DNA of 64,000 nucleotides from Sulfurovum sp. (GTDB taxonomy: Bacteria; Campylobacterota; Campylobacteria; Campylobacterales; Sulfurovaceae): contig NZ_WGDD01000042.1 of the NCBI RefSeq assembly GCF_015493435.1, positions 1-64,000 of the forward strand, given 5' to 3'. Shown here in pieces: positions 20,809-37,360 of this stretch. Positions within the stretch are counted from its first letter, which is position 1. Each line of letters starts with the position of its first letter. The notes beneath the pieces were generated by a model. That model saw only the letters and a list, made by a program, of their open reading frames with translations, ran no database searches and was not told the origin of the DNA. The translations under genes and the position numbers were made by a program.

Positions 20809-20884
20809 GTAGGGGTGCCCCTTGTGGGTACCCGAAACATTATGCTTTGTGCAATTATGGGCAACCACAAGGGATTGCCCCTAC
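20809..20884. repeat. GTAGGGG...CCCCTAC inverted repeat between aspS and adk
   Basis: Arm 1 (20809-20833, starting GTAGGGGTGCCCC) and arm 2 (20859-20884, ending TTGCCCCTAC) are imperfect inverted copies around a 25-bp spacer. The 25-bp arm 1 is identical, reverse-complemented, to 29296-29320, so this is a dispersed element. On the mRNA it would fold into a long hairpin between two essential genes. Confidence 0.85.
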
Positions 20885-20886
20885 AA

Positions 20887-22641
20887 TTATGCCGTCGGTG
20901 CAGCCTGTCTGAGTCTGATGCTCAGCTCTTTGAGCTGCTCATTGTCGACTTCGCTTGGTGCCTGGGTAAGCAGACACTGTGCTTTCTGTGTTTTTGGGAA
21001 GGCAATGACATCACGAATGCTGCTGGCACCTGTCATGATCATGATCATCCTGTCAAGGCCGAGTGCAAAACCGCCGTGCGGCGGTGCACCGAACTTGAGC
21101 GCGTCAAGCAGGAAGCCGAATTTACTCTGCGCTTCCTCTTCACTGATACCCAGAAGTTTGAAAACTTCTTCCTGTACATCCTCTTTATGGATACGGATAG
21201 ATCCGCCGCCCAGCTCCGTACCGTTGAGAACCACGTCATATGCGATAGATTCGATCTCTTCGATCTCATCATAGTCAAGCGATTTTGGCTGTGTGAACGG
21301 GTGGTGAAGTGCTTTGACCTTGCCGTCCTCGACTTCGAACATCGGGAAGTCCATGACCCAGAGGAACTCGAAACGGTCTTCGGGGATGATGTCCATGGTC
21401 TCTGCAAGGTAGATACGGAAACGGCCCATATAGTCCCAGACCAGTTTTTTCTCACCCGCACCGAAGAAGACGGCATCGCCCACTTCAAGTCCGCAGCGGT
21501 CGATGATCGCCTGGATGTCGTCTTCTGTGAAGAATTTGGTCAATGGGCCTTTGAGACCGTCCTCTTTCATCTGGAAATAGCCCAGACCCTGCGCGCCGAA
21601 TTTGCGTACATAGTCCTCAAAGCCTTTCATTTGGCGTTTGGAGAAGATCTCATCGCCTTTGGGTACCCTGAGCGCTTTGATACGGTTCTTTTTGGGCATT
21701 TTGGCGATACTTGAGAAGATCTCGTTGTCGCATCTCTCGAAAATATCAAGTACATCGACCATCGCAAGATCGTAACGCATGTCCGGTTTGTCCGAACCGT
21801 ATTTTTCCATCGCTTCTGCATGTGTCATACGGTTGAACTTTGTCGGTACGTCAAACCCGCATTTAATGAAAACATCGGAGATGAGTTTTTCGGCAACGGT
21901 AATGACATCTTCCTGGTCACAGAAAGACATTTCGACGTCTATCTGGGTAAATTCCGGCTGTCTGTCGGCTCTGAGGTCTTCGTCTCTGAAACATTTTGCG
22001 ATCTGGAAATAGCGGTCGAAACCACCCACCATCAGAAGCTGTTTGAAAAGCTGTGGAGATTGGGGAAGGGCATAGAACTCACCACCGTGTACACGGCTTG
22101 GTACCAGGTAGTCTCTTGCACCTTCCGGTGTTGATTTGGTCAAAATAGGTGTTTCCACTTCAAGGAAACCAAGTTCATCCAGTGCATTTCTTGTGGCGAT
22201 GGTTGCTTTGGAGCGCAGCTTGAAAGTGTTGTATGCTTTTTGTGTTCTGAGTTCAAGGTAGCGGTATTTGAGTTTGATCTCTTCGTTCACTTTTTCGTCA
22301 TTGAGCTCGAAAGGCATCGGTTTGGAGCGGTTTTCGATGGTCAGTGAATCTACTACCATTTCGACCTTGCCTGTTTTGAGGTTCGGGTTCTCAAGACCTT
22401 CGCCTCTTGCACGGATCTTGCCCGTAGCGATCAGGACGAACTGGTCTCTGATCTCTTCGGCTGTTTTGTGCGCCTCGGCATTGTCTGCCGGGTCACAGAC
22501 AAGCTGTACGACTTCGTCTTTGTCTCTGAGGTCGATAAAGATAACCCCGCCATGGTCTCTGCGGCTGGCTACCCAGCCGGCTACGGTGACTGTTTCACCG
22601 ATATGTTGTTCATTTACGTCAGCACAGTAATGTGTTCTCAT
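20887..22641 (-). CDS. aspS: Aspartyl-tRNA synthetase
   Basis: 584 residues. It charges tRNA(Asp) and, where no asparaginyl-tRNA synthetase exists, often tRNA(Asn). ATG 22641 with AGGAT upstream is preferred over the TTG at 22644. The N-terminal OB-fold includes '[13 protein letters not shown]' and '[14 protein letters not shown]'; class II motifs include '[20 protein letters not shown]', '[18 protein letters not shown]' and '[13 protein letters not shown]'. The bacterial-type GAD insertion domain lies between motifs 2 and 3. It precedes adk on the same strand. Confidence 0.97.
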
Positions 22642-26959: not shown

Positions 26960-29278
26960 TCACTGTGACCGGCTGTGTAGCGCTTTCTCTCCCTCTATAA
27001 CTTCGTCTTTATATACTTTTACCCCTTCGAGATATCCGCTGATCTCTACTTCTTCATAGGCAATGCCTTCGGGTACTGCTTCAGAGTGCAGTTGTACGGC
27101 GCACTGTTTGTAGTTCGGTTCGAAAGATTTCGGGTCGAATTCCGGGATGGTAATATTGTTGATGAGCTGTTCATTGAAGTGGAAAGGTACGAAGACATTC
27201 CCTTCCCGTACGGTTTCGCTCACTTTCACAATGACATCCTCTACTCGTCCCCTGTTTCCGGAAAGTGAGATGCGGTCTCCGCTTTTGACTTTGAGCTTTG
27301 CAGCATCTTTGGGGCTGAGGTCGACCCAGGCTTCCGGTGCCAGGTTGTCCAGTATGCCGATGGTTCCTGTTTTAGTACGAGTATGGAACTGTTCGACCGT
27401 TCGTCCCGTGTTGAGTATGAGAGGCAGTCCTTTGCATTGCATTTCACTCAGCGGTATCCAGTCTACAGGAAGAAGGTTCGCTGTGCCGTCAGCTGTAGGG
27501 CAGGGCATTTCCTCGGAGTAGAGGCGTTTGGTACCTTTGGGGGCTTTTTCATTGCAGGGCCACTGTATGCCTCCCAGTTCTTCGATAAGTTCGTAGCTCA
27601 TACCGCTGTAGTCGCAGAGCTGACCCTGGCTGACTCGTCTAATTTCATTAAAAACATCTCTTGGTGTCTGAAGGTCTTTGAAAAGCAGCTCGTGTTTGCC
27701 TTCAAAGTATTTGGAAAATTCTATGACGATGTCAAGATCGCTTTTGGTCGTTCCCAGAGGTTCTATGGCTTTTTTGGCATAGTTGCATCGTCGTTCGGAG
27801 TTGGTGTAGCATCCCTCTTTCTCACTCCATGTTGCTGCGGCAAAGACCACGTCGGCGATTTGTGCAGTGTCGGACATGAAGGCATCCTGTACGACAAGAA
27901 GGTCGAGTTTTTTAAGGGCTTCTCTCAATCCGTTCTGGTCCGGGTAGGAAACGAGCGGATTGGTCGCGACCACCCAGAGTGCTTTGATCTCCCCTCGATT
28001 GATCGCATCGATGATCTGCGGGTAGGCATAGCCTCTGGCCGAAGGGATAAGCGCTTCGGGTACATTGATGAGGGAAGCGAATTCTTTTCTGTCTGCTTCC
28101 GAAGCATAATTCCTATAGCCGGGGATAGAGGAAGTGAAGCCGAATTCTCTCGTTCCCATGGCGTTGCACTGCCCGGTAATGGACATGGGGGAGGATCCTT
28201 CTTTGCCGAGGTTCCCGGTAATAAGCGCCAGGTTGCAGATGGCTGAAACGGTATCGGTCCCGATACTGCTCTGGTTCACGCCCATGGTCCAGGCACTCAT
28301 GGCTCTGTCCGCCGTGGCATAGATCTTGGCCAGGTTGTAAAGTGCTTTGACATCGATACCCGTAATATGTGCTACTTCCTGCGGAGGATAGTTGTTCATA
28401 ATATGCTTTCTGAACGCTTTGTAGCCGTTGGTCCGCTCTTTGATGAACGTTTCATCTTCCCAGCCCTGTTCCATGATAATGTAGCAAAGTCCGTTAAGCA
28501 GTGCCAGGTCGGAACGCGGCGCAAGCGGTACGAAAATGTCTGCCATCTGGGATGTCTTTGACTTGCGCGGGTCGACAACAATGAGGGTCGGCTTTTTGCC
28601 TGTCTCTTTTTTGTTTTTGGCAATATGCAGTTTCAAAATAGGGTGGTTGTCTGCAATGTTCGCACCGATGAGCAGAATGACATCGGCTTTGGAGAAGTCT
28701 TCATAGCATCCGGTCGGGCCGTCCGAACCGAAGGTCTGCTTGTACCCCATGACGGCGGAAGCCATACAAAGCGTGGTATTGCCGTCGTAATTGTTGGTTT
28801 CAAGTCCAAGCTGGGTGAATTTACCCAAAGCGTAGAACTCTTCGGTCAGAAGCTGTCCGGTCGAGATGACGGAAACAGCGCCTTTGCCATGTTCCTTCTG
28901 TATGCGCTTGAATTCGTCGCTGACCTTTGTGAATGTCTCCTCCCAGCCTGCAGGGGTGAGTGTACCGTTCTTCCTGATCATCGGTGCAGGGACACGGCTG
29001 TCCGCGCGTACCATTTCGTGTTCGCTCAGGCCTTTGGGGCAGAGGGTACCCATGTTGACAGGGTGAAGCGGGTCGCCTTTGGAGTAGACCGCATTGCCGT
29101 CCTTGACGCCGATGTACATACCGCAGCCGACACCGCAGTAGCCGCAAGTGGTGCGTACCCACTTGTCAGGGGCTTTGGCTTTGGCCACTTTGCCGAAGAT
29201 GGGGTCGTCTACGAGGGCATATTTGTCTTCTTTGATATCGAAGCCGAGAAAGTTTTTTGCTTTGTCTATGAGACTCAT
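26960..29278 (-). CDS. nasA: Assimilatory-type nitrate reductase, molybdopterin catalytic subunit
   Basis: 772 residues from ATG 29278 with GGAG 7 bases upstream. It reduces nitrate to nitrite at a bis-MGD molybdenum centre. The N-terminal [4Fe-4S] motif is C45-x2-C48-x3-C52-x27-C80. 'NTTLCMASAV' carries the Cys expected to bind Mo, and 'GSDGPTGCYEDF' follows as in NarB/NapA enzymes. There is no twin-arginine signal, so the enzyme is cytoplasmic, unlike NapA. No reductase, FAD or ferredoxin domain is fused. The upstream gene in the same operon encodes a DmsB-DmsC-like fusion that may feed it electrons. The assimilatory assignment rests on the cytoplasmic location and the nitrite reductase in the operon. 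Confidence 0.9.
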   Translation of the reverse strand: MSLIDKAKNFLGFDIKEDKYALVDDPIFGKVAKAKAPDKWVRTTCGYCGVGCGMYIGVKDGNAVYSKGDPLHPVNMGTLCPKGLSEHEMVRADSRVPAPMIRKNGTLTPAGWEETFTKVSDEFKRIQKEHGKGAVSVISTGQLLTEEFYALGKFTQLGLETNNYDGNTTLCMASAVMGYKQTFGSDGPTGCYEDFSKADVILLIGANIADNHPILKLHIAKNKKETGKKPTLIVVDPRKSKTSQMADIFVPLAPRSDLALLNGLCYIIMEQGWEDETFIKERTNGYKAFRKHIMNNYPPQEVAHITGIDVKALYNLAKIYATADRAMSAWTMGVNQSSIGTDTVSAICNLALITGNLGKEGSSPMSITGQCNAMGTREFGFTSSIPGYRNYASEADRKEFASLINVPEALIPSARGYAYPQIIDAINRGEIKALWVVATNPLVSYPDQNGLREALKKLDLLVVQDAFMSDTAQIADVVFAAATWSEKEGCYTNSERRCNYAKKAIEPLGTTKSDLDIVIEFSKYFEGKHELLFKDLQTPRDVFNEIRRVSQGQLCDYSGMSYELIEELGGIQWPCNEKAPKGTKRLYSEEMPCPTADGTANLLPVDWIPLSEMQCKGLPLILNTGRTVEQFHTRTKTGTIGILDNLAPEAWVDLSPKDAAKLKVKSGDRISLSGNRGRVEDVIVKVSETVREGNVFVPFHFNEQLINNITIPEFDPKSFEPNYKQCAVQLHSEAVPEGIAYEEVEISGYLEGVKVYKDEVIEGEKALHSRSQ

Positions 29279-29290
29279 TGTATTCTCCAA

Positions 29291-29409
29291 GTCAAGGGTA
29301 CCCACAAGGGGCACCCCTACGGTATTTTATGTATTCATGTTTGTATGGGGGCATCCCTTCTGGGTGCCCACCATGTCAAGGGTACCCACAAGGGGCACCT
29401 CTACGGTAT
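29291..29409. repeat. Tandem palindromic repeat between nasA and dmsBC fusion
   Basis: A 35-bp unit at 29291-29325 recurs at 29375-29409 with one mismatch. The first copy pairs with an imperfect inverted arm at 29343-29369, so the block is arm - loop - inverse arm - arm. Its 25-bp core is the reverse complement of the element between aspS and adk. It occupies most of the intergenic space inside the nitrate operon. Confidence 0.85.
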
Positions 29410-29415
29410 CTCAAT

Positions 29416-31023
29416 TTAATGCCGCTGGTTCCCCGCAAAGAAATTCCCTGCCAGCCCCAAGGGTACTACCGTCCGGTAGAACAGGTAGCGTCCGGCCAGT
29501 TCGCTGGCGAAAGCTCCAAACGTTGCGATAAACAGTGTTGTGACAGCCAAGCCTGTCAGACCGCTGGCAGTAAAGAGGATGGCAAGCAGCGGCAGTGCCA
29601 GTGCGAATGCTGCGAGAGAATAAACCCTGAACTTCTTTACTTTGGCAAAATGTTCCTGAAGCAGGATACGGGTACGGTTGTACTGGTAGTAAAGCGGGTC
29701 TTCTTTGTCGAGGTGGCGGTAGAACATCACTTCTTCAAGAATGACCAGTGCCTGTCCCATACCTGCTACCAGTGTAATGGCAAGCAGGACCATGGCTCCC
29801 TGTGCGCCGTTGCTGATGAGCAGTACCAGTGCGATGAGCAAAAAGCCGACATAGCCTGAGCCGAAGAAGCGTTTGGTGGTGCTTTTTCGGTTCCAGCTCG
29901 GACGCGCTTTAATACGGTAGATCATCGACTGTGCATAAATACCGAAAAGGCCTATGGCCAGGGTAACCGCTTCGACCAGCAGCAGCAGAAAGCCTTTGAT
30001 ATCGAGAAAGTACATTCCTGCGACCAGGGTCGCCAATCCTGTATAGGCCCCCAGTGCAATGGCTTCTCGCGAAAGCCAGGAGGTTTTCCAGTTCTTCATG
30101 GCGGACATCGCTTTGGCAGGGCGTCCCAGGTGCAGAGCAGAAAGGGGCAGTCCAATGGCTGCAGGCAGAAAGGCCAGCATTGCCATTGCCAGATTGGGTT
30201 TGGGCAGATCGAAACCGAGAGAAAAGAGCATCTGTCCCAAAAAGAGTGCCAGAAAGGCACCGACGGAGACTTGCGTGAGCACCGTCATGAAAACAAGCGG
30301 CAGTTCAGGATGGGCAGGGTGCAGTAAATGTTCATCTGCCACACGTATCTTTTCACCTTCCGGGATATCAGGAAGTGTGTATCGTGTGGTCGGTTTGGTA
30401 ATGCCTATATCGGGCAGGTGGGGGGCGACACCCTCTTTGGCCATATCTTCATCAAGCCATTTGTCTACATTGACAGCCTCTATTTCGATGGCACCTCCCG
30501 GACAGGCCTGCACACAGGCTGGCGTTTGGCCTGCTTCGAGTTTGTCCACGCACATATGACATTTGGTGACGATGCCTCGGTCTGGGTTGAAAACAGGGAC
30601 TTCGTACGGACAGTTCCAGGTACAGTACTGGCAGCCGATACAGCTTGGGTCGTCATGCCAGACGATCCCGTTGTCCAGTTTGATATAGCTCTCTGTAGGA
30701 CAGCCCCTGAGACATTCCGGGTCGATACAGTGGTTACAGCTCATAGAGTTGAAGAGCTGCAGGGTGTCCGGAAATTCACCCATTTCCATCTCTCCTACAC
30801 GGCGCCATTTGATATCGGGACTGTTGCCGTTCTGTTCGTTACAGGCTACTTCGCAGCAGTGACAGCCTACACAGGCGGTAGCATCGAAATGAAAACGGTA
30901 CTGTTCGCCGGGCTTGAGTTCAGGGATATCTATGCTGTAGTTCCCGCACTGCATACCGGTCTCGTTCTTGTGATTGATGAAACTTTCCAATGGTGTATGT
31001 TTACTTAAGGGTTCCACTGCCAT
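29416..31023 (-). CDS. DmsB-DmsC fusion: four-cluster ferredoxin plus quinol-oxidising anchor
   Basis: 535 residues. The N-terminal part (about 45-215) has four Cys groups, CVGCHCCEVAC, CNHCIDPECLRGC, CIGCQYCTWNC and CHMC...CVQAC, matching the four [4Fe-4S] clusters of DmsB/NrfC-type subunits. The C-terminal part (about 240-535) has eight or so membrane segments like DmsC, including 'LPLSALHLGRPAKAM' near a predicted quinol site. In DMSO-reductase-family enzymes these are two separate proteins. Lying between nitrite and nitrate reductase genes on one strand, it probably passes electrons from menaquinol to the cytoplasmic nitrate reductase, which is inference. The Shine-Dalgarno is weak (AAAGAAG). 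Confidence 0.88.
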   Translation of the reverse strand: MAVEPLSKHTPLESFINHKNETGMQCGNYSIDIPELKPGEQYRFHFDATACVGCHCCEVACNEQNGNSPDIKWRRVGEMEMGEFPDTLQLFNSMSCNHCIDPECLRGCPTESYIKLDNGIVWHDDPSCIGCQYCTWNCPYEVPVFNPDRGIVTKCHMCVDKLEAGQTPACVQACPGGAIEIEAVNVDKWLDEDMAKEGVAPHLPDIGITKPTTRYTLPDIPEGEKIRVADEHLLHPAHPELPLVFMTVLTQVSVGAFLALFLGQMLFSLGFDLPKPNLAMAMLAFLPAAIGLPLSALHLGRPAKAMSAMKNWKTSWLSREAIALGAYTGLATLVAGMYFLDIKGFLLLLVEAVTLAIGLFGIYAQSMIYRIKARPSWNRKSTTKRFFGSGYVGFLLIALVLLISNGAQGAMVLLAITLVAGMGQALVILEEVMFYRHLDKEDPLYYQYNRTRILLQEHFAKVKKFRVYSLAAFALALPLLAILFTASGLTGLAVTTLFIATFGAFASELAGRYLFYRTVVPLGLAGNFFAGNQRH

Positions 31024-31046: not shown

Positions 31047-31124
31047 TTGTAGGGTGTTGTCCCATGGCAACACCTTTTGTTTGGGTGCATAACATTGGTG
31101 TTGCCATGGGACAACACCCTACAA
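31047..31124. repeat. Perfect 28-bp inverted repeat between nirA and dmsBC fusion
   Basis: Arms 31047-31074 and 31097-31124 are exact inverted copies (starting TTGTAGGGTGTTGTCCCATG) around a 22-bp loop. The RNA would form a very stable stem in the middle of the nitrate operon. The GTAGGG/CCCTAC ends place it in the same family as the other intergenic elements. Confidence 0.92.
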
Positions 31125-31145: not shown

Positions 31146-31403
31146 CTATATTTCCTTAAGCGCTACTAATAATTCCGAGAATACCTGCGCACGTTCGCTT
31201 TTGTTCTCATGGGTCATGTTGTAGACCACTTCCGAGAGTTTTGGCGGTACTTTCGGGTTGAGCCGGCTGACTTCATCGCGTTTGATCTTTCTGGGTCTGA
31301 GCATATTGGGTGCCAGACCGTCTACCGCGTCAAAACGTTTTTCTCCGGTAAGCAGTTTGTAAAGCTGCAGACCGAAGGTAAAAAGTTCGTACTCTTCACG
31401 CCT
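31146..31403 (-). other. Pseudo-kinase C-lobe segment inside nirA
   Basis: Residues 555-639 of NirA. Block 1 'FGLQLYKLLTGEKRF' matches 'IGVTLYEAMTQKFPF' of the PP2C-kinase without gaps. After 24 residues (21 in the kinase), block 2 'NPKVPPKLSEVV...' aligns with 'NPKIPDWFESII...' for 34 residues without gaps, including the Arg that is invariant in kinase subdomain XI and a shared 'SE' eight bases-of-frame later (residues S28/E29 of the block). The catalytic HxD, DFG and the whole N-lobe are missing, so it cannot be an active kinase. Confidence 0.7.
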
Positions 31404-33065
31404 TCCGCTTTTGGGTTCTTTATTGAGATCGAAAAAGAGGCCAAGCCCCAGTTTTTCATTGAGGATATAGTTGATTTTGGTGTAAAAAGAGATCGCCTGG
31501 AAACTGTACTTTCTGCTGAGAAAGCGGTCATCAAATGCTTCATATGTTTCCGCTCTGTGTCTGTTGGCAGCATAAAGTTTCAGCAAATATTTCACATGGT
31601 GCCTTGCTTCATCGAGGGGCAGGGCTTTATGCAGAATGTGGGCCTCCCTGGCTTCACGGGTGATCTTTCCGCCCATGAAAAGGTGTACACCGTCAACCCT
31701 GTTGCCCTCTGCATCTTTGGCTTTGCAGCCTTCAAAGCCTATGTCTGCAATGCCGTGTACGCCGCAGCCTTTGGGGCAGGCAGACCAGTTCATGCGCACT
31801 ACCGCATGCTCCAGCGGTACTTCCGAATTCAAGAAGTGTGCCGTTTCAACGGCGTCCGGTTTGTTGGGAATGACACCGAAAGAACAAGTGTTGGTACCGG
31901 CACAGGCTATCATGTCCTGAAAGTACAGGTTATGAAAGGCTGCATATTTCGCTACAAGCGGGCTCTCTTCGAGCTGTGGCAGTTTTTCCTCCGGGATATT
32001 GACAAGAAAGAGGTTCTGGTCATAGGTAAGCCGTATATGTCCGCTGCCGTATGTCTGTGCGCTTTTGGCTGCTTCTATCATGTCCGTTCCGCTGAAAATA
32101 CCTGAAGGAACAATGACCTTGTAGGCATAGGTTCCGTCCTTAAGCAGTACTTTGTTGGCGCCGAGCGCGATATTCTGTGACTGCACCATGGTCACACCGG
32201 CTTTGGCGTATGTTTGGCCTGCTTCTTCTTCAACGGCTTCTATGAATGCGGAAATGCCCACATCATTCAGAAGGAAATGCAGACGGTTTTTGTTACGGTT
32301 GTCACGGTAGCCGTATCGTTTAAATACATTCAGAAGGGCTTCATAGAAGGGGAGTACCTCCTCGGCAGTAATGAAAAGATCGGCATCCTTCGCCTGTACA
32401 CCGACCCTTGCACCCAAATAAATATTGAAACCGAAGACCCCTTCTTTCTGAGCCAGTACAAAACAGCAGTCATGTCCGAAAATATTGCAGGAGTTGGAAA
32501 GCGAACCGAGGATACCTGTATTGAATTTCCGGGGCAGGGTAGAGATCCATTCAGGGTTTTCTATGAAATGTTTTTCCAGTCTGTCCACAATGGGTTTGCT
32601 TTCAATAATGTTATCGTAGGCAAGCCCGTCAAGCGGATCTGAAACGGTATTCCGTGTGTTGTCAACACCTGTCTGGAACGTGCTGAGTTCCACCTCTTTG
32701 AGCGCATGCAGCACTTTGGCGATATTCTCTATCTGGATATAGCGCAAAACCACCTGCATACGGGTGGAAAGATCAATGTAGTCATTGGCATAGGTCTGTG
32801 CGACTTCACCGATGCGAAGCGCCTGTTCATAGGTGAGCTGGCCCGCGGGAATACGTATCCTGAGCATAAAATCCTCACCTTTGTCAAAAAGACCGAAACA
32901 TTTCAGGAAGTAGGCAGAATCTTCTTTGGCCAATCCTTCATATCCTGCTGCCGCAATGGATTCAAGTTTTTCATAGACATCCATAGGCTTTTTCAGTGCT
33001 TTGGTAGTTTCTACTTTATTGACTTTTTTACTTCTTGCTTCTAATGCTTTTTGCAATATCTCCAT
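31146..33065 (-). CDS. nirA: Siroheme nitrite reductase with kinase-like C-terminal extension
   Basis: 639 residues from ATG 33065 (ATG 33077 abuts its GGAG and is less likely). The enzyme reduces nitrite to ammonia with six electrons. The siroheme/[4Fe-4S] Cys sets are 'CAGTNTC' (C-x5-C) and 'CPKGC' (C-x3-C). Both ferredoxin-like half domains and repeats are present over residues 1-500, matching the NirA length of 510-560. The last 120 residues are extra. Within them 'FGLQLYKLLTGEKRF' and 'NPKVPPKLSEVV' align with the end of the kinase domain of the nearby PP2C-kinase. The nitrite rather than sulfite assignment comes from the operon. Confidence 0.9.
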   Translation of the reverse strand: MEILQKALEARSKKVNKVETTKALKKPMDVYEKLESIAAAGYEGLAKEDSAYFLKCFGLFDKGEDFMLRIRIPAGQLTYEQALRIGEVAQTYANDYIDLSTRMQVVLRYIQIENIAKVLHALKEVELSTFQTGVDNTRNTVSDPLDGLAYDNIIESKPIVDRLEKHFIENPEWISTLPRKFNTGILGSLSNSCNIFGHDCCFVLAQKEGVFGFNIYLGARVGVQAKDADLFITAEEVLPFYEALLNVFKRYGYRDNRNKNRLHFLLNDVGISAFIEAVEEEAGQTYAKAGVTMVQSQNIALGANKVLLKDGTYAYKVIVPSGIFSGTDMIEAAKSAQTYGSGHIRLTYDQNLFLVNIPEEKLPQLEESPLVAKYAAFHNLYFQDMIACAGTNTCSFGVIPNKPDAVETAHFLNSEVPLEHAVVRMNWSACPKGCGVHGIADIGFEGCKAKDAEGNRVDGVHLFMGGKITREAREAHILHKALPLDEARHHVKYLLKLYAANRHRAETYEAFDDRFLSRKYSFQAISFYTKINYILNEKLGLGLFFDLNKEPKSGRREEYELFTFGLQLYKLLTGEKRFDAVDGLAPNMLRPRKIKRDEVSRLNPKVPPKLSEVVYNMTHENKSERAQVFSELLVALKEI

Positions 33066-33098
33066 AATAATGTACATCTCCGTGCTATAATTGGATTT

Positions 33099-33298: not shown

Positions 33299-34579
33299 AT
33301 GGCAGGATTCAAGGCACTCAAAGGACAGGGAGATGCAAAGACGCTCTTTGCGGCTTTTCTTTACTTCGATTTCAGTTTTATGGTGTGGACCATGCTCGGA
33401 CCACTCGCAACAGAGATAAGTGATTCTCTGGCTCAGCATGCGGAAGCTCTGACACAGGGGCAGATAGCGACACTGCTTTCCATCCCCATACTGGCAGGGG
33501 CACTGCTGCGTATCGTACTTGGTTTTTCTGTAGATAAAGCCGGTCCGAAAAAGACAGCGATCGGAGCACAGCTTATTGTGATTGCATCACTCTTTTATGC
33601 CTATACAAGGGGAGCGAGCATTACCTATAACGAGCTGCTTCTTGTGGCACTCGGGCTTGGTTTTGCCGGCGCTTCGTTTGCTGTAGCGCTTCCCCAGGCC
33701 GGACAATGGTATCCGCCTAAACTCCAGGGGATTGTGCTCGGTATCGCAGGAGCGGGTAACATCGGTGTGGTTATTGATTTCCTTTTCGCGCCGAAAATTG
33801 CAGAAATATGGGGATGGGAAGCTGTTTTCCTTGTCGGCGGCATACTCTCTTTCTTTGTACTCATAACCTATATTTTCATGGCAAAAGATGCACCGTCATC
33901 TGTCTATAAAGCAAGACCGAAAAAAGTAGGGGATTACTGGAAACTGCTTAAAGACAGGGACAGCTGGTGGTTTATGCTTTTTTATGCGGTAAGTTTCGGA
34001 GGTTTTGTAGGCTTTGCGAACTATATGAAGGTTTATCTTATGAATACCTATCAGGCAGATATGAGTGCCTTCGGTCTCAGTGTTTTCAATGAACCGAACG
34101 TCAAGGTCATTGCAGGTTACTTCGGAGCATTGACCATTTTTGCCGGTGCGGTACTCCGACCGGTAGGCGGCGGTGTAGCCGATAAAATGGGTGGTATCAA
34201 AGCACTCTATATCTTCTTCGGTGTCGTAGCGGCGCTTGTACTGCTGAGCGGTGCGGTGCATTTGCATTTCTGGGTAGCGATCGCGGTACTTTTCCTCATC
34301 ATGGCTGCTCTGGGAATGGCCAACGGTGCAGTCTTCCAGCTTGTACCGCAGCGTTTCGGAAAAGATATCGGTATCATGACCGGCCTTATCGGTGCAGCCG
34401 GTGGGATCGGCGGTACATTTCTTGTCAAAACACTCGGCTGGGCAAAAGGTACGTTCAATACCTACAGTATGGGATTCTTCATTTTTGCCGCTCTGGTTCT
34501 GCTTGCCATTGGTGCTATCTCACTGGTTAAAACCCGCTGGAGAACGACCTGGGGTGTCAATTCAGGGGGGATGATCTGA
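33299..34579 (+). CDS. narK: NarK/NasA-family nitrate/nitrite transporter
   Basis: 426 residues with about 12 membrane segments of the major facilitator type. Family blocks include 'FDFSFMVWTMLGPL' near the N-terminus, 'GIAGAGNIGVVIDFLFAPKI' and 'NGAVFQLVPQRF...GLIGAAGGIGG' in the second half, typical of nitrate/nitrite porters. It imports nitrate for the reductases encoded divergently. The intergenic region of 233 bp holds two inverse dyads and two -10 boxes, so both directions are probably switched on together. A perfect 10-bp hairpin follows the gene. Confidence 0.93.
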   Translation: MAGFKALKGQGDAKTLFAAFLYFDFSFMVWTMLGPLATEISDSLAQHAEALTQGQIATLLSIPILAGALLRIVLGFSVDKAGPKKTAIGAQLIVIASLFYAYTRGASITYNELLLVALGLGFAGASFAVALPQAGQWYPPKLQGIVLGIAGAGNIGVVIDFLFAPKIAEIWGWEAVFLVGGILSFFVLITYIFMAKDAPSSVYKARPKKVGDYWKLLKDRDSWWFMLFYAVSFGGFVGFANYMKVYLMNTYQADMSAFGLSVFNEPNVKVIAGYFGALTIFAGAVLRPVGGGVADKMGGIKALYIFFGVVAALVLLSGAVHLHFWVAIAVLFLIMAALGMANGAVFQLVPQRFGKDIGIMTGLIGAAGGIGGTFLVKTLGWAKGTFNTYSMGFFIFAALVLLAIGAISLVKTRWRTTWGVNSGGMI

Positions 34580-34740: not shown

Positions 34741-36375
34741 ATGTCAAAACAGAACATCGAAACCTCCGGTTTTACACTTGCCAAAGGTACCCAGCTCACA
34801 GGAGATGATTTCTTTGAAGTGAAAGTCATGGAGAACATTACCGTAGCTGTAGTGTGCGACGGGGTCGGGTCGGCAGCATACGGGGCTGAAGCAGCCAGGC
34901 GTACGACGCAGTTTCTGATACAGTCGCTTAAGAACCGTCCGAGAAGCTGGAGTATGGAAAAATCCATCAAACACTTCATCGAAAATATCAACCGTGTTCT
35001 TTATCTTGAATCAATGGAACAGTATGAACGTGAAGAACTGGTCACGACACTGACACTGGTGGTCATAGAAGGCGACAGACTGTATGGTGCCAATGTCGGT
35101 GACAGCCGCATTTATCTGGCACGTAACGGGCAGTTCGCACAGCTCTCTTTGGACCATGCCATGGACGAAGCGGGCATGGAGAATGTACTGACTGCCGCAA
35201 TCGGCCTTGAAGAGAGGGTAGAGCCGTACTATTTTGAAAACAACCTGCAAGCCCAGGACCGGATACTGCTCTGCAGCGACGGCCTTTACAATGAATTGAC
35301 CCAGGAAGAGCTCGCCGAAGGGCTGCCTATGGGGGCTTCCTACCTGGTCAAAAAAGCAAGCAAAAAACATGACGACAACCTGCCGGACGATACCACGGCC
35401 GTGGTGATAGAGATCAAAGAACTTGATCCGAGGCTGAAACTCAAACAGACTGACCTTATTGTCAGCGAAAATTATAAAAAGGACGAAGTGATCGACGGCT
35501 ACAGACTGCTTAAGCCGCTCATTCAGAACAACCGTACTTGGCTGTGTGAAAAGAAAGGGGTGCAGTATGTCATAAAGTTCGCCCCTTTCGAAGCTCTGGA
35601 AGATGAAGTGATGCTTGATCTCTTTGTAAAAGAGGTCTGGATGGCAAAACGTCTCAAAGCGGGTTTCTTTCCCAAAGCCGTCATACCGAAAAAACGTACG
35701 CACCGTTACTATATCATGAGTTTTGTCGAGGGTACATCGCTGAAAGAGTTTTGTGCCAAAAAGCCGCTTTCGGTTGACCTTGGCATTGAACTGTCCCGTT
35801 TTCTGCTGAAAATGTCCCAGTATCTTATCAAGCAGAACCTGGTGCATGGCGACATTAAACCTGAAAACATCATCGTTACCAAACGTAAAGAGAAACTGGT
35901 TTTCAAAATGGTCGATTTCGGGAGCATTACCGAAGCCTATTCGGATGTGACACGCGCAGGAACACCTTCTTACCTTGCCCCGGAGCGTTTTAACCAGGCC
36001 CCTGTAACGGAGCAGACAGAAATTTACGCCATTGGTGTTACCCTGTACGAAGCAATGACACAGAAATTTCCGTTCGGGGAGATCGAACCGTTCCAGAATC
36101 CGAGTTTCGACAAAAACCCGAAACATCCTGCCAAATACAACCCGAAAATACCCGACTGGTTTGAAAGTATAATACTTCGTGCCATTGAAAACGATACCAA
36201 CAAGCGGTACCATAACTATTCGGAAATGTTATTTGAAATAGACAATCCCTCTAAGGTTCAGCCTTACTTTGACAAAACGGCTTCTTTTATTGAGCGCCAT
36301 GAACTGATGGTATACAAAGTGGGCTTTATTACAATGTTCATTCTCAATATTGTACAGCTGCTTTTTTGGCATTAA
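34741..36375 (+). CDS. PP2C phosphatase - Ser/Thr protein kinase fusion with C-terminal membrane anchor
   Basis: 544 residues. The N-terminal PP2C domain (about 10-230) has the metal-binding Asp sites 'VCDGVGSA' (D40), 'LCSDGLYNEL' (D180) and 'DDTTAVVI' (D215-D216). A protein kinase domain follows (about 250-515), with catalytic loop 'HGDIKPEN' (369-376, D371), 'DFG' at 392-394 and 'APERF'. The glycine-rich loop is not evident. A single membrane segment (about 525-543) ends the chain. Fusions of this layout lie beside nitrate transporter and nitrite reductase genes in some Pseudomonas (PA1782 region), which supports a role in nitrogen control. Targets are unknown; the NirA tail is a candidate partner. 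Confidence 0.92.
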   Translation: MSKQNIETSGFTLAKGTQLTGDDFFEVKVMENITVAVVCDGVGSAAYGAEAARRTTQFLIQSLKNRPRSWSMEKSIKHFIENINRVLYLESMEQYEREELVTTLTLVVIEGDRLYGANVGDSRIYLARNGQFAQLSLDHAMDEAGMENVLTAAIGLEERVEPYYFENNLQAQDRILLCSDGLYNELTQEELAEGLPMGASYLVKKASKKHDDNLPDDTTAVVIEIKELDPRLKLKQTDLIVSENYKKDEVIDGYRLLKPLIQNNRTWLCEKKGVQYVIKFAPFEALEDEVMLDLFVKEVWMAKRLKAGFFPKAVIPKKRTHRYYIMSFVEGTSLKEFCAKKPLSVDLGIELSRFLLKMSQYLIKQNLVHGDIKPENIIVTKRKEKLVFKMVDFGSITEAYSDVTRAGTPSYLAPERFNQAPVTEQTEIYAIGVTLYEAMTQKFPFGEIEPFQNPSFDKNPKHPAKYNPKIPDWFESIILRAIENDTNKRYHNYSEMLFEIDNPSKVQPYFDKTASFIERHELMVYKVGFITMFILNIVQLLFWH

Positions 36376-36454: not shown

Positions 36455-37360
36455 TCAATCGATGGTCGTTCTTTTCTTTGCACCGACAAGCCAATATGCT
36501 ATAGCCAGGCCCACTATAACAGCGGCGATGATAAGCAGCTCTTCACCCTTCTCAGCCGAGAGCGAGTATATCAGTACTTTTCGTATCAGGGCGGCCATTG
36601 CCAACATGATAAAAGCACCTATCGCAAACCCTTTGCCCTGTAAATGGTTGATTTCCTCATGGATCAGCTCTATGGCCGCCCATAAGACCAGCAAGCTGCC
36701 CAAAACTGTCAGAATGCCTTTTTCTATGCCTATGTCTGAAAAGAACAGCAGATAAATATCGTATCCGAACAGTACAACAGCAAAAAATGCAACAAGAGCC
36801 AAGGCCCCGGCTAAAAAATAATTGATATATGAATTGAATTTTTTCAGACCGGTTAAAATACTTTTTTCTATTTTTGACAAAGATAGAAATTTGCTCAATT
36901 CTTCTTCTCTATAGGAACTTGTCAGTACATCAAGGTTCATATCGATAATTTTTTCAACAGCCTGAATCTCTTTTACATGCTGTTCTTTATTGCCAAAATT
37001 TTCTTCTATACTTTTCAGGACAAAAGTTCTTACAAATGTGAATGCCGAGTTGACATAGTGTGTCGGCAAACCTATTTTTACATGAACTTCACCGATTTTA
37101 TACAAATACATAAAATAGGGAAGGTCGTATTGTCCACAAAACAAATTGATAAACCATGCTTTGATTTTTGTACGGTGATATGCAATAATTTCTTTGTTTT
37201 TCAGGAACTGGGCAGTTTTTCCAAATCCCCAGATATAATTATAAAATTCATCTATAAAATCGTCTGCCAGCTTTTCCATCCGGGGTTGAAGTGCCTTTAG
37301 AATTTGAGCTTCTTCCTCCGTAAATTTATAATGTTCTTTTAGACTTTGATAATGTTGCAT
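36455..37360 (-). CDS. Protoglobin - PsiE fusion
   Basis: 301 residues. Residues 1-165 match the protoglobin/globin-sensor fold: 'YKIGEVHVKIGLPTHYV' holds the expected proximal haem His, H93. Residues 185-295 are four membrane segments with the PsiE-family block 'LVLWAAIELIHEEINH' and 'RKVLIYSL'. PsiE was named as a phosphate-starvation-inducible membrane protein in E. coli; its activity is unknown. A haem-bound gas (O2, NO or CO) sensor coupled directly to a PsiE membrane domain is the most direct reading, but signalling is inference. The gene is monocistronic and convergent with the PP2C-kinase gene. Confidence 0.85.
   Translation of the reverse strand: MQHYQSLKEHYKFTEEEAQILKALQPRMEKLADDFIDEFYNYIWGFGKTAQFLKNKEIIAYHRTKIKAWFINLFCGQYDLPYFMYLYKIGEVHVKIGLPTHYVNSAFTFVRTFVLKSIEENFGNKEQHVKEIQAVEKIIDMNLDVLTSSYREEELSKFLSLSKIEKSILTGLKKFNSYINYFLAGALALVAFFAVVLFGYDIYLLFFSDIGIEKGILTVLGSLLVLWAAIELIHEEINHLQGKGFAIGAFIMLAMAALIRKVLIYSLSAEKGEELLIIAAVIVGLAIAYWLVGAKKRTTID

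Follow-up and report, generated by a model that had tools for sequence, protein, structure and literature searches.

A protein kinase C-lobe fragment at the C terminus of siroheme nitrite reductase in Sulfurovum and other Campylobacterota

The window, i.e., the whole stretch of 64,000 nucleotides of Sulfurovum sp. DNA that was analysed, carries a nitrate assimilation island at about 27-36 kb. A molybdopterin nitrate reductase of the assimilatory, Nas/Nar-like type (26960..29314, minus strand; Pfam Molybdopterin, 1.3e-68) is followed by a ferredoxin-DmsC-like membrane subunit, a DmsB/DmsC fusion (29416..31023, minus strand; Pfam Fer4_11, 9.4e-22; DmsC, 2.5e-21), and by nirA (31146..33077, minus strand), which encodes a siroheme/4Fe-4S nitrite reductase with a C-terminal extension. 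Divergently from nirA run the genes of a NarK-type MFS nitrate/nitrite transporter (33299..34579, plus strand; Pfam MFS_1, 2.6e-33) and, downstream of it, of a PP2C phosphatase fused to a Ser/Thr kinase, with a hydrophobic segment at the C terminus (PP2C-kinase; 34741..36375, plus strand; Pfam PP2C_2, 3.4e-20; Pkinase, 9.2e-25). The place of the DmsB/DmsC-like gene between nitrate reductase and nirA suggests quinol-linked electron supply to the assimilatory nitrate reductase. The closest loci found with NirA as the query belong to Sulfurovum. A fusion of a Protoglobin domain and a PsiE-type membrane domain adjoins the island (36455-37360, minus strand; Pfam Protoglobin, 3.7e-27; PsiE, 3.6e-22) and is possibly a membrane NO/O2 sensor. 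Two kinds of repeat were also seen: a perfect inverted repeat of 25 bp, TAGGGTGTTGTCCCATGGCAACACC, in the spacer that separates nirA from the iron-sulfur/DmsC gene (31050-31074 / 31097-31121), and an interspersed repeat, GGGTACCCACAAGGGGCACC, with three copies in the window (20814-20833, 29296-29315, 29380-29399) and five in the genome when up to one mismatch is allowed; some ORFs have the latter at their 5' end and can be spuriously lengthened by it.

NirA is 643 amino acids long from the first ATG and 639 from the in-frame ATG at 33065, which is the likely start. Its catalytic core (residues about 5-518; 31524..33065, minus strand) has two stretches each of the Pfam families NIR_SIR (2.4e-38) and NIR_SIR_ferr (2.3e-32), and the protein matches the NCBIfam ferredoxin--nitrite reductase model at 3.7e-104. 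The cluster/siroheme cysteines C388, C394, C430, and C434 (C-X5-C ... C-X3-C, in the motifs CAGxxxC and C(P)KGC) are invariant in 46 sequences, and the AF2 model of full-length NirA superimposes on tobacco NiR (3b0l/3b0g) over 509 columns at an rmsd of 2.5, with tobacco and spinach NiR as the nearest folds. From sequence and model, NirA is apparently a siroheme nitrite reductase with an ordinary, intact core, sharing core, Pfam domain pairs, cysteines, and fold with the ferredoxin-type enzymes (NirA/Nii; spinach 2akj, tobacco 3b0g, Mycobacterium tuberculosis NirA 1zj8). It differs from these in about 120 additional C-terminal residues that include the kinase C-lobe fragment described below; the ferredoxin--nitrite reductase model (513 positions) stops before this tail, and no Pfam-A family claims it. 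An earlier note on this DNA had put NirA at about 639 residues, roughly 100 above its family. The length is borne out, and the excess is about 110-120 residues because the tailless relatives have 516-532.

The extension consists of a linker with a 17-residue helix (NirA residues 519-560 of 643; 31398..31523, minus strand; AF2 helix 522-538 in the 639 numbering) and a kinase C-lobe fragment running from alphaF to alphaI (residues 561-643 of 643; 31149..31397, minus strand), recognized by hhalign, PDB profile, Foldseek, and NCBIfam searches; 31146-31403, the segment that the earlier note had called kinase-like, coincides with it. A single tail searched against Pfam Pkinase (PF00069) scores 12.1 bits (E 0.12), which is below the gathering score of 31.7, so that profiles are needed, and this sub-threshold score is what speaks for a chance resemblance or a non-kinase helical domain. 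We regard that alternative as practically negligible in view of the other evidence. Profile-profile comparison of the tail with the PP2C-kinase family (hhalign) gives E 3.4e-12 over 83 columns, a profile of 11 diverse tails matches PknB/Stk1 kinase chains in the PDB at 2.7e-6, and even a single tail reaches 5.6e-5 against the NCBIfam PknB model. The matches are reciprocal: after the NirA tails themselves, the next matches of a tail profile across whole genomes are PP2C-kinase C-lobes, down to 1e-13, and the kinase as query finds NirA tails of other genomes at 2.0e-7 and 6.5e-7. The two tail blocks quoted in the earlier note were found again, and each can be aligned with the kinase encoded at 34741-36375. 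Local alignment of tail and kinase gives a score of 68, compared with a mean of 34.9 (sd 5.4) and a maximum of 64 in 5000 shuffles; the ungapped 36-residue block around NPKVPPKLSEVV/NPKIPDWFESII reaches 48, whereas no stretch of that length in the NirA core exceeds 23; and the alphaF-alphaI profile score is 79.6 against a shuffled maximum of 22.1. The Arg of subdomain XI, likewise pointed out before, is conserved in 93% of tails and 100% of kinases. Structure prediction agrees: the AlphaFold model of the tail alone has a mean pLDDT of 88.8 and a pTM of 0.83, and its best PDB matches by Foldseek are PknB-type kinases (probability 1.00, 80-90 columns), with E-values (9.9e-4) and TM-scores that are modest because the tail is a fragment. 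For full-length NirA, the first fold matches outside the sulfite/nitrite reductase families are kinases as well. The NirA tail is homologous to alphaF-alphaI of the protein kinase C-lobe.

What the tail lacks is equally clear. The alignment to the PP2C-kinase begins only at kinase residue 419, beyond the HGD at 369 and the DFG at 392, and no N-lobe, ATP-binding Lys, HRD/HGD, DFG, or APE was found in the tail; since the ATP-binding N-lobe, the catalytic loop, and the activation segment are absent, it cannot phosphorylate anything. Only about 83 residues are kinase-like, and the two-lobed kinase fold is not present. The earlier note had let the extension begin at helix E with a decayed HGD loop. 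This candidate was rejected: the proposed remnant before alphaF, FYTKINYILNEKL, has a profile score of 13.1, no better than chance (shuffled-column mean 11.0; 31/200 as high), and its best profile match in the kinase lies elsewhere than helix E. Linker residues 519-560 score within the shuffled range against the kinase domain profile, and a kinase origin is not demonstrable for them; some long Foldseek alignments take in the helix preceding alphaF, and these offer the remnant no rescue because their rmsd is near 10. Of the pseudokinase half-lobe that had been proposed, a non-catalytic C-lobe fragment thus stands, and the part from helix E with a lost HGD, whose score is within the shuffled range, falls away. 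Among solved structures, the PASTA kinases PknB/Stk1/StkP (2fum, 4eqm, 9ymt, 9ru3) match best, both in fold and in profile searches; they are complete and active, and only about 80-95 of their residues correspond to the tail. With pseudokinases and kinase-like scaffolds the tail has in common that it is kinase-derived, non-catalytic, and conserved; pseudokinases, however, keep both lobes, whereas the tail is only part of the C-lobe.

The comparison with the transporter-linked bifunctional PP2C phosphatase/Ser-Thr kinases is of a different kind, i.e., one of kinship. Their alphaF-alphaI is homologous to the tail, which has no PP2C domain, N-lobe, catalytic loop, DFG, APE, or membrane segment and is, in contrast to them, fused to an enzyme. 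In a tree of alphaF-alphaI, to be read with care as it has 95 columns and does not include PknB-type kinases, the tails form one clade (100/100), and tails together with NarK-linked kinases are split from divergent PP2C-kinases (99/96). The canonical Asp of alphaF is replaced by Glu in 100% of the tails and 100% of the NarK-linked kinases, a change common to the tail and the Campylobacterota branch of the transporter-linked PP2C-kinases, whereas all eight divergent PP2C-kinases in the alignment keep the Asp; the G278 sequence, a ninth one entered there as divergent, turned out to be an orthologue of the NarK-linked kinases. Scores with the tail profile are 37-54 bits for NarK-linked kinases and 16 for the single alphaproteobacterial kinase reported. 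Judged from the profile-profile match, the tree, and the common alphaF Glu, the PP2C-kinase family of the same island is closer kin to the tail than any other kinase compared, as had been proposed.

How widely the tail occurs was followed in 298 Campylobacteria genomes of good completeness, 51 of which have this NirA. A clear tail is present in 41/51, and on inspection three more proved to have a tail that is diverged or cut by a contig end (G050, G269, G327), so that overall 41-44/51 (about 80-86%) of the NirA-bearing Campylobacterota genomes sampled have it. In a tree of the NirA core only, seven truly tailless proteins group together in one clade (99); elsewhere in the tree are a distant tailless protein and L203, whose tail is truncated, and three changes are needed. 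Across 397 genomes of the phylum, the ORFs that match the tail strongly are NirA-sized and carry the match at their end; apart from one bare relic of a NirA tail (L219, G029:C27, about 21644-21937), in a genome in which no intact NirA was found, the remaining matches fall in ORFs of kinase size or in very large kinase ORFs. On plasmids of other phyla the NirA query covers, among the matches listed, only the core (about residues 10-540). The single tail clade, the shared rare Asp-to-Glu change, and purifying selection (see below) together argue for one ancient fusion of a kinase-family fragment, and the tail is best read, from these comparisons, as the product of that fusion in an ancestor of the Campylobacterota NirA family.

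It could be argued that the tail is a non-functional leftover of this fusion; its loss or truncation in some lineages (L203 and the tailless clade of seven) and the bare relic in G029 would fit. We consider this very improbable because the tail is constrained: it is kept in most NirA genomes of the class sample, its dN/dS is about 0.1 (0.04-0.18, vs 0.05-0.15 for the core, in pairs with finite dS), which rules out a decaying relic, and its structural residues are invariant. Conservation across tails falls on residues that hold the kinase fold, and no further conserved surface was found. By these measures the tail is under purifying selection, with the fold kept. A case of tail swapping by selection seemed to be offered by G081 and G083, in which a different tail (72% identical) is joined to a near-identical core and kinase. 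The nucleotide-identity scan shows a single transferred island (L216 5600-13900 vs L217), mostly 94-99% identical with flanks of 60-80%; this is a recent island transfer with a recombination edge inside the nirA tail.

The earlier note took the tail to be a site on which the kinase or phosphatase docks, or a means of setting NirA near the membrane kinase. In one form of the docking idea, the tail would be the docking site for a PP2C-kinase whose substrate is NirA, and nitrite reductase would be switched by (de)phosphorylation. The catalytic motifs of the adjacent kinase are intact (K279, E298, HGDIK, and DFG are conserved in 25 orthologues), nirA and the kinase gene are usually within a few kb of each other, and a contact between two kinase C-lobes has a parallel in PknB, which forms asymmetric front-to-front dimers leading to trans-phosphorylation (PMC3601408). 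The distribution of the kinase gene, however, points elsewhere. Among 55 genomes tested for a close PP2C-kinase and a close NarK, the kinase is present in exactly the 42 with a close NarK (42/42) and absent from the other 13, with a kinase-NarK gap below 250 bp in 30/41 measurable (shared-contig) cases. Of these 42 genomes, two do not have this NirA, and in three it is tailless or truncated (the kinase without a tailed NirA: G040, G263, G278, G333, G334). Seven tail-bearing genomes have no close NarK. Divergent PP2C-kinases adjoin NirC-type transporters in G238 and G296; on plasmids of Azospirillum and Acinetobacter, PP2C-kinases stand beside NarK- or NirC-type transporters, and on a Methylocystis plasmid one stands beside an MFS transporter with NirBD. 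At these plasmid loci the nitrite reductase, if present, is NirBD, and the kinases are annotated "bifunctional protein-serine/threonine kinase/phosphatase" or "protein kinase". Because of the complete co-presence with NarK and of the divergent kinases beside NarK/NirC-type transporters, the kinase is best regarded as belonging to the transporter, which suggests that it regulates NarK rather than nitrite reductase. Further points stand against NirA as the substrate, i.e., tails without a kinase exist, we know of no phosphosite in NirA, and co-divergence, which favors neither side decisively, gives the tail a low partial correlation with the kinase C-lobe (0.13) and a higher one with the kinase N-part (0.48). 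We therefore find this form of kinase docking quite improbable, and the docking idea as a whole is weakened, since the kinase tracks NarK and tail and kinase each persist alone.

The same exceptions bear on whether the tail needs the kinase at all. Tail and PP2C-kinase occur together in 39/41 clear cases, a figure inflated by shared ancestry, and an obligate pairing can be dismissed with exceptions in both directions. The earlier note proposed to check whether the tail is always accompanied by a PP2C-kinase gene and would have given up its reading if tails turned up without one nearby. No PP2C-kinase was found in the tail-bearing G246, G293, and G269, two of these being drafts of 160-210 contigs, and nirA lies outside any nitrate island in G246 and G293; universal co-occurrence is thus lost, and the objection that the earlier note had named against its own reading applies in a small minority of genomes. 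Because of such exceptions a structural explanation stays alive, in which the tail is an ordinary part of NirA (fold stability, dimer contact, or electron-donor docking) and the association with the kinase is only operon history. Besides persisting without a kinase, the tail coexists with divergent kinases (G238, G330, G296, G173), its conserved positions are the fold-holding ones, the identical core in G081/G083 tolerated a different tail, and AF2 models full-length NirA at a pTM of 0.85. On the other hand, the tailless clade consists of close relatives that keep the conserved NirA core, so that the tail is dispensable for the enzyme, and the coexistence with the PP2C-kinase, inflated as it is, also speaks against this explanation. 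On balance, a purely structural role, the main rival of the reading that follows, seems to us somewhat unlikely.

The explanation we favor, tentatively, is that of a dead binding module: the tail would bring NirA to the membrane site of the transporter and its kinase. The alphaG/alphaH face of kinases such as PKR and PknB is commonly used for protein contacts. On the reading of its origin given above, NirA once gained a C-terminal alphaF-alphaI copy from the PP2C-kinase that accompanies NarK. The alphaG/alphaH face of this fragment may serve as the binding module, and NirA could then take the place of the kinase C-lobe in one of its normal contacts, with the transporter or with the PP2C-kinase itself. 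Given the perfect link between kinase and NarK, a contact with the transporter is no less plausible than one with the kinase. Nitrite reductase would in this way be held at the membrane site of nitrite entry or production and be coupled to transporter control, and the tail would be dispensable for the kinase and for the transporter. Against this reading stand the three tail-bearing genomes in which no PP2C-kinase was found, the seven that have no close NarK, the conservation of the fold-holding residues with no further conserved surface found, and the different tail on the G081/G083 core. A more specific version is rather unlikely in our estimate: the docking face borne by NirA would be that of the transporter's kinase, NirA and this kinase would meet at NarK/NirC as competitors or as partners, and nitrite entry would thereby be coupled to reduction. 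If this version is true, enzyme and regulator use one borrowed binding surface, and a dead part-lobe has come to target a metabolic enzyme.

Enzyme and kinase family are both known already; the fusion of part of a kinase C-lobe with a siroheme reductase seems to be undescribed. In agreement with the earlier note, we found, in a full-text search of 5.39 million open papers, no description of a kinase tail on a siroheme nitrite reductase and, with the terms tried, none of a PP2C-kinase in nitrate assimilation in the open literature; the genome paper of Arcobacter butzleri does not mention nirA. The fusion appears to be old and single and is kept in most NirA-bearing Campylobacterota sampled, including chemosynthetic vent bacteria, and so is not a curiosity of one genome. 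As the tail sits on a soluble, assayable enzyme, it offers a handle on the role and the partners of the widespread transporter-linked PP2C-kinases of nitrate assimilation.
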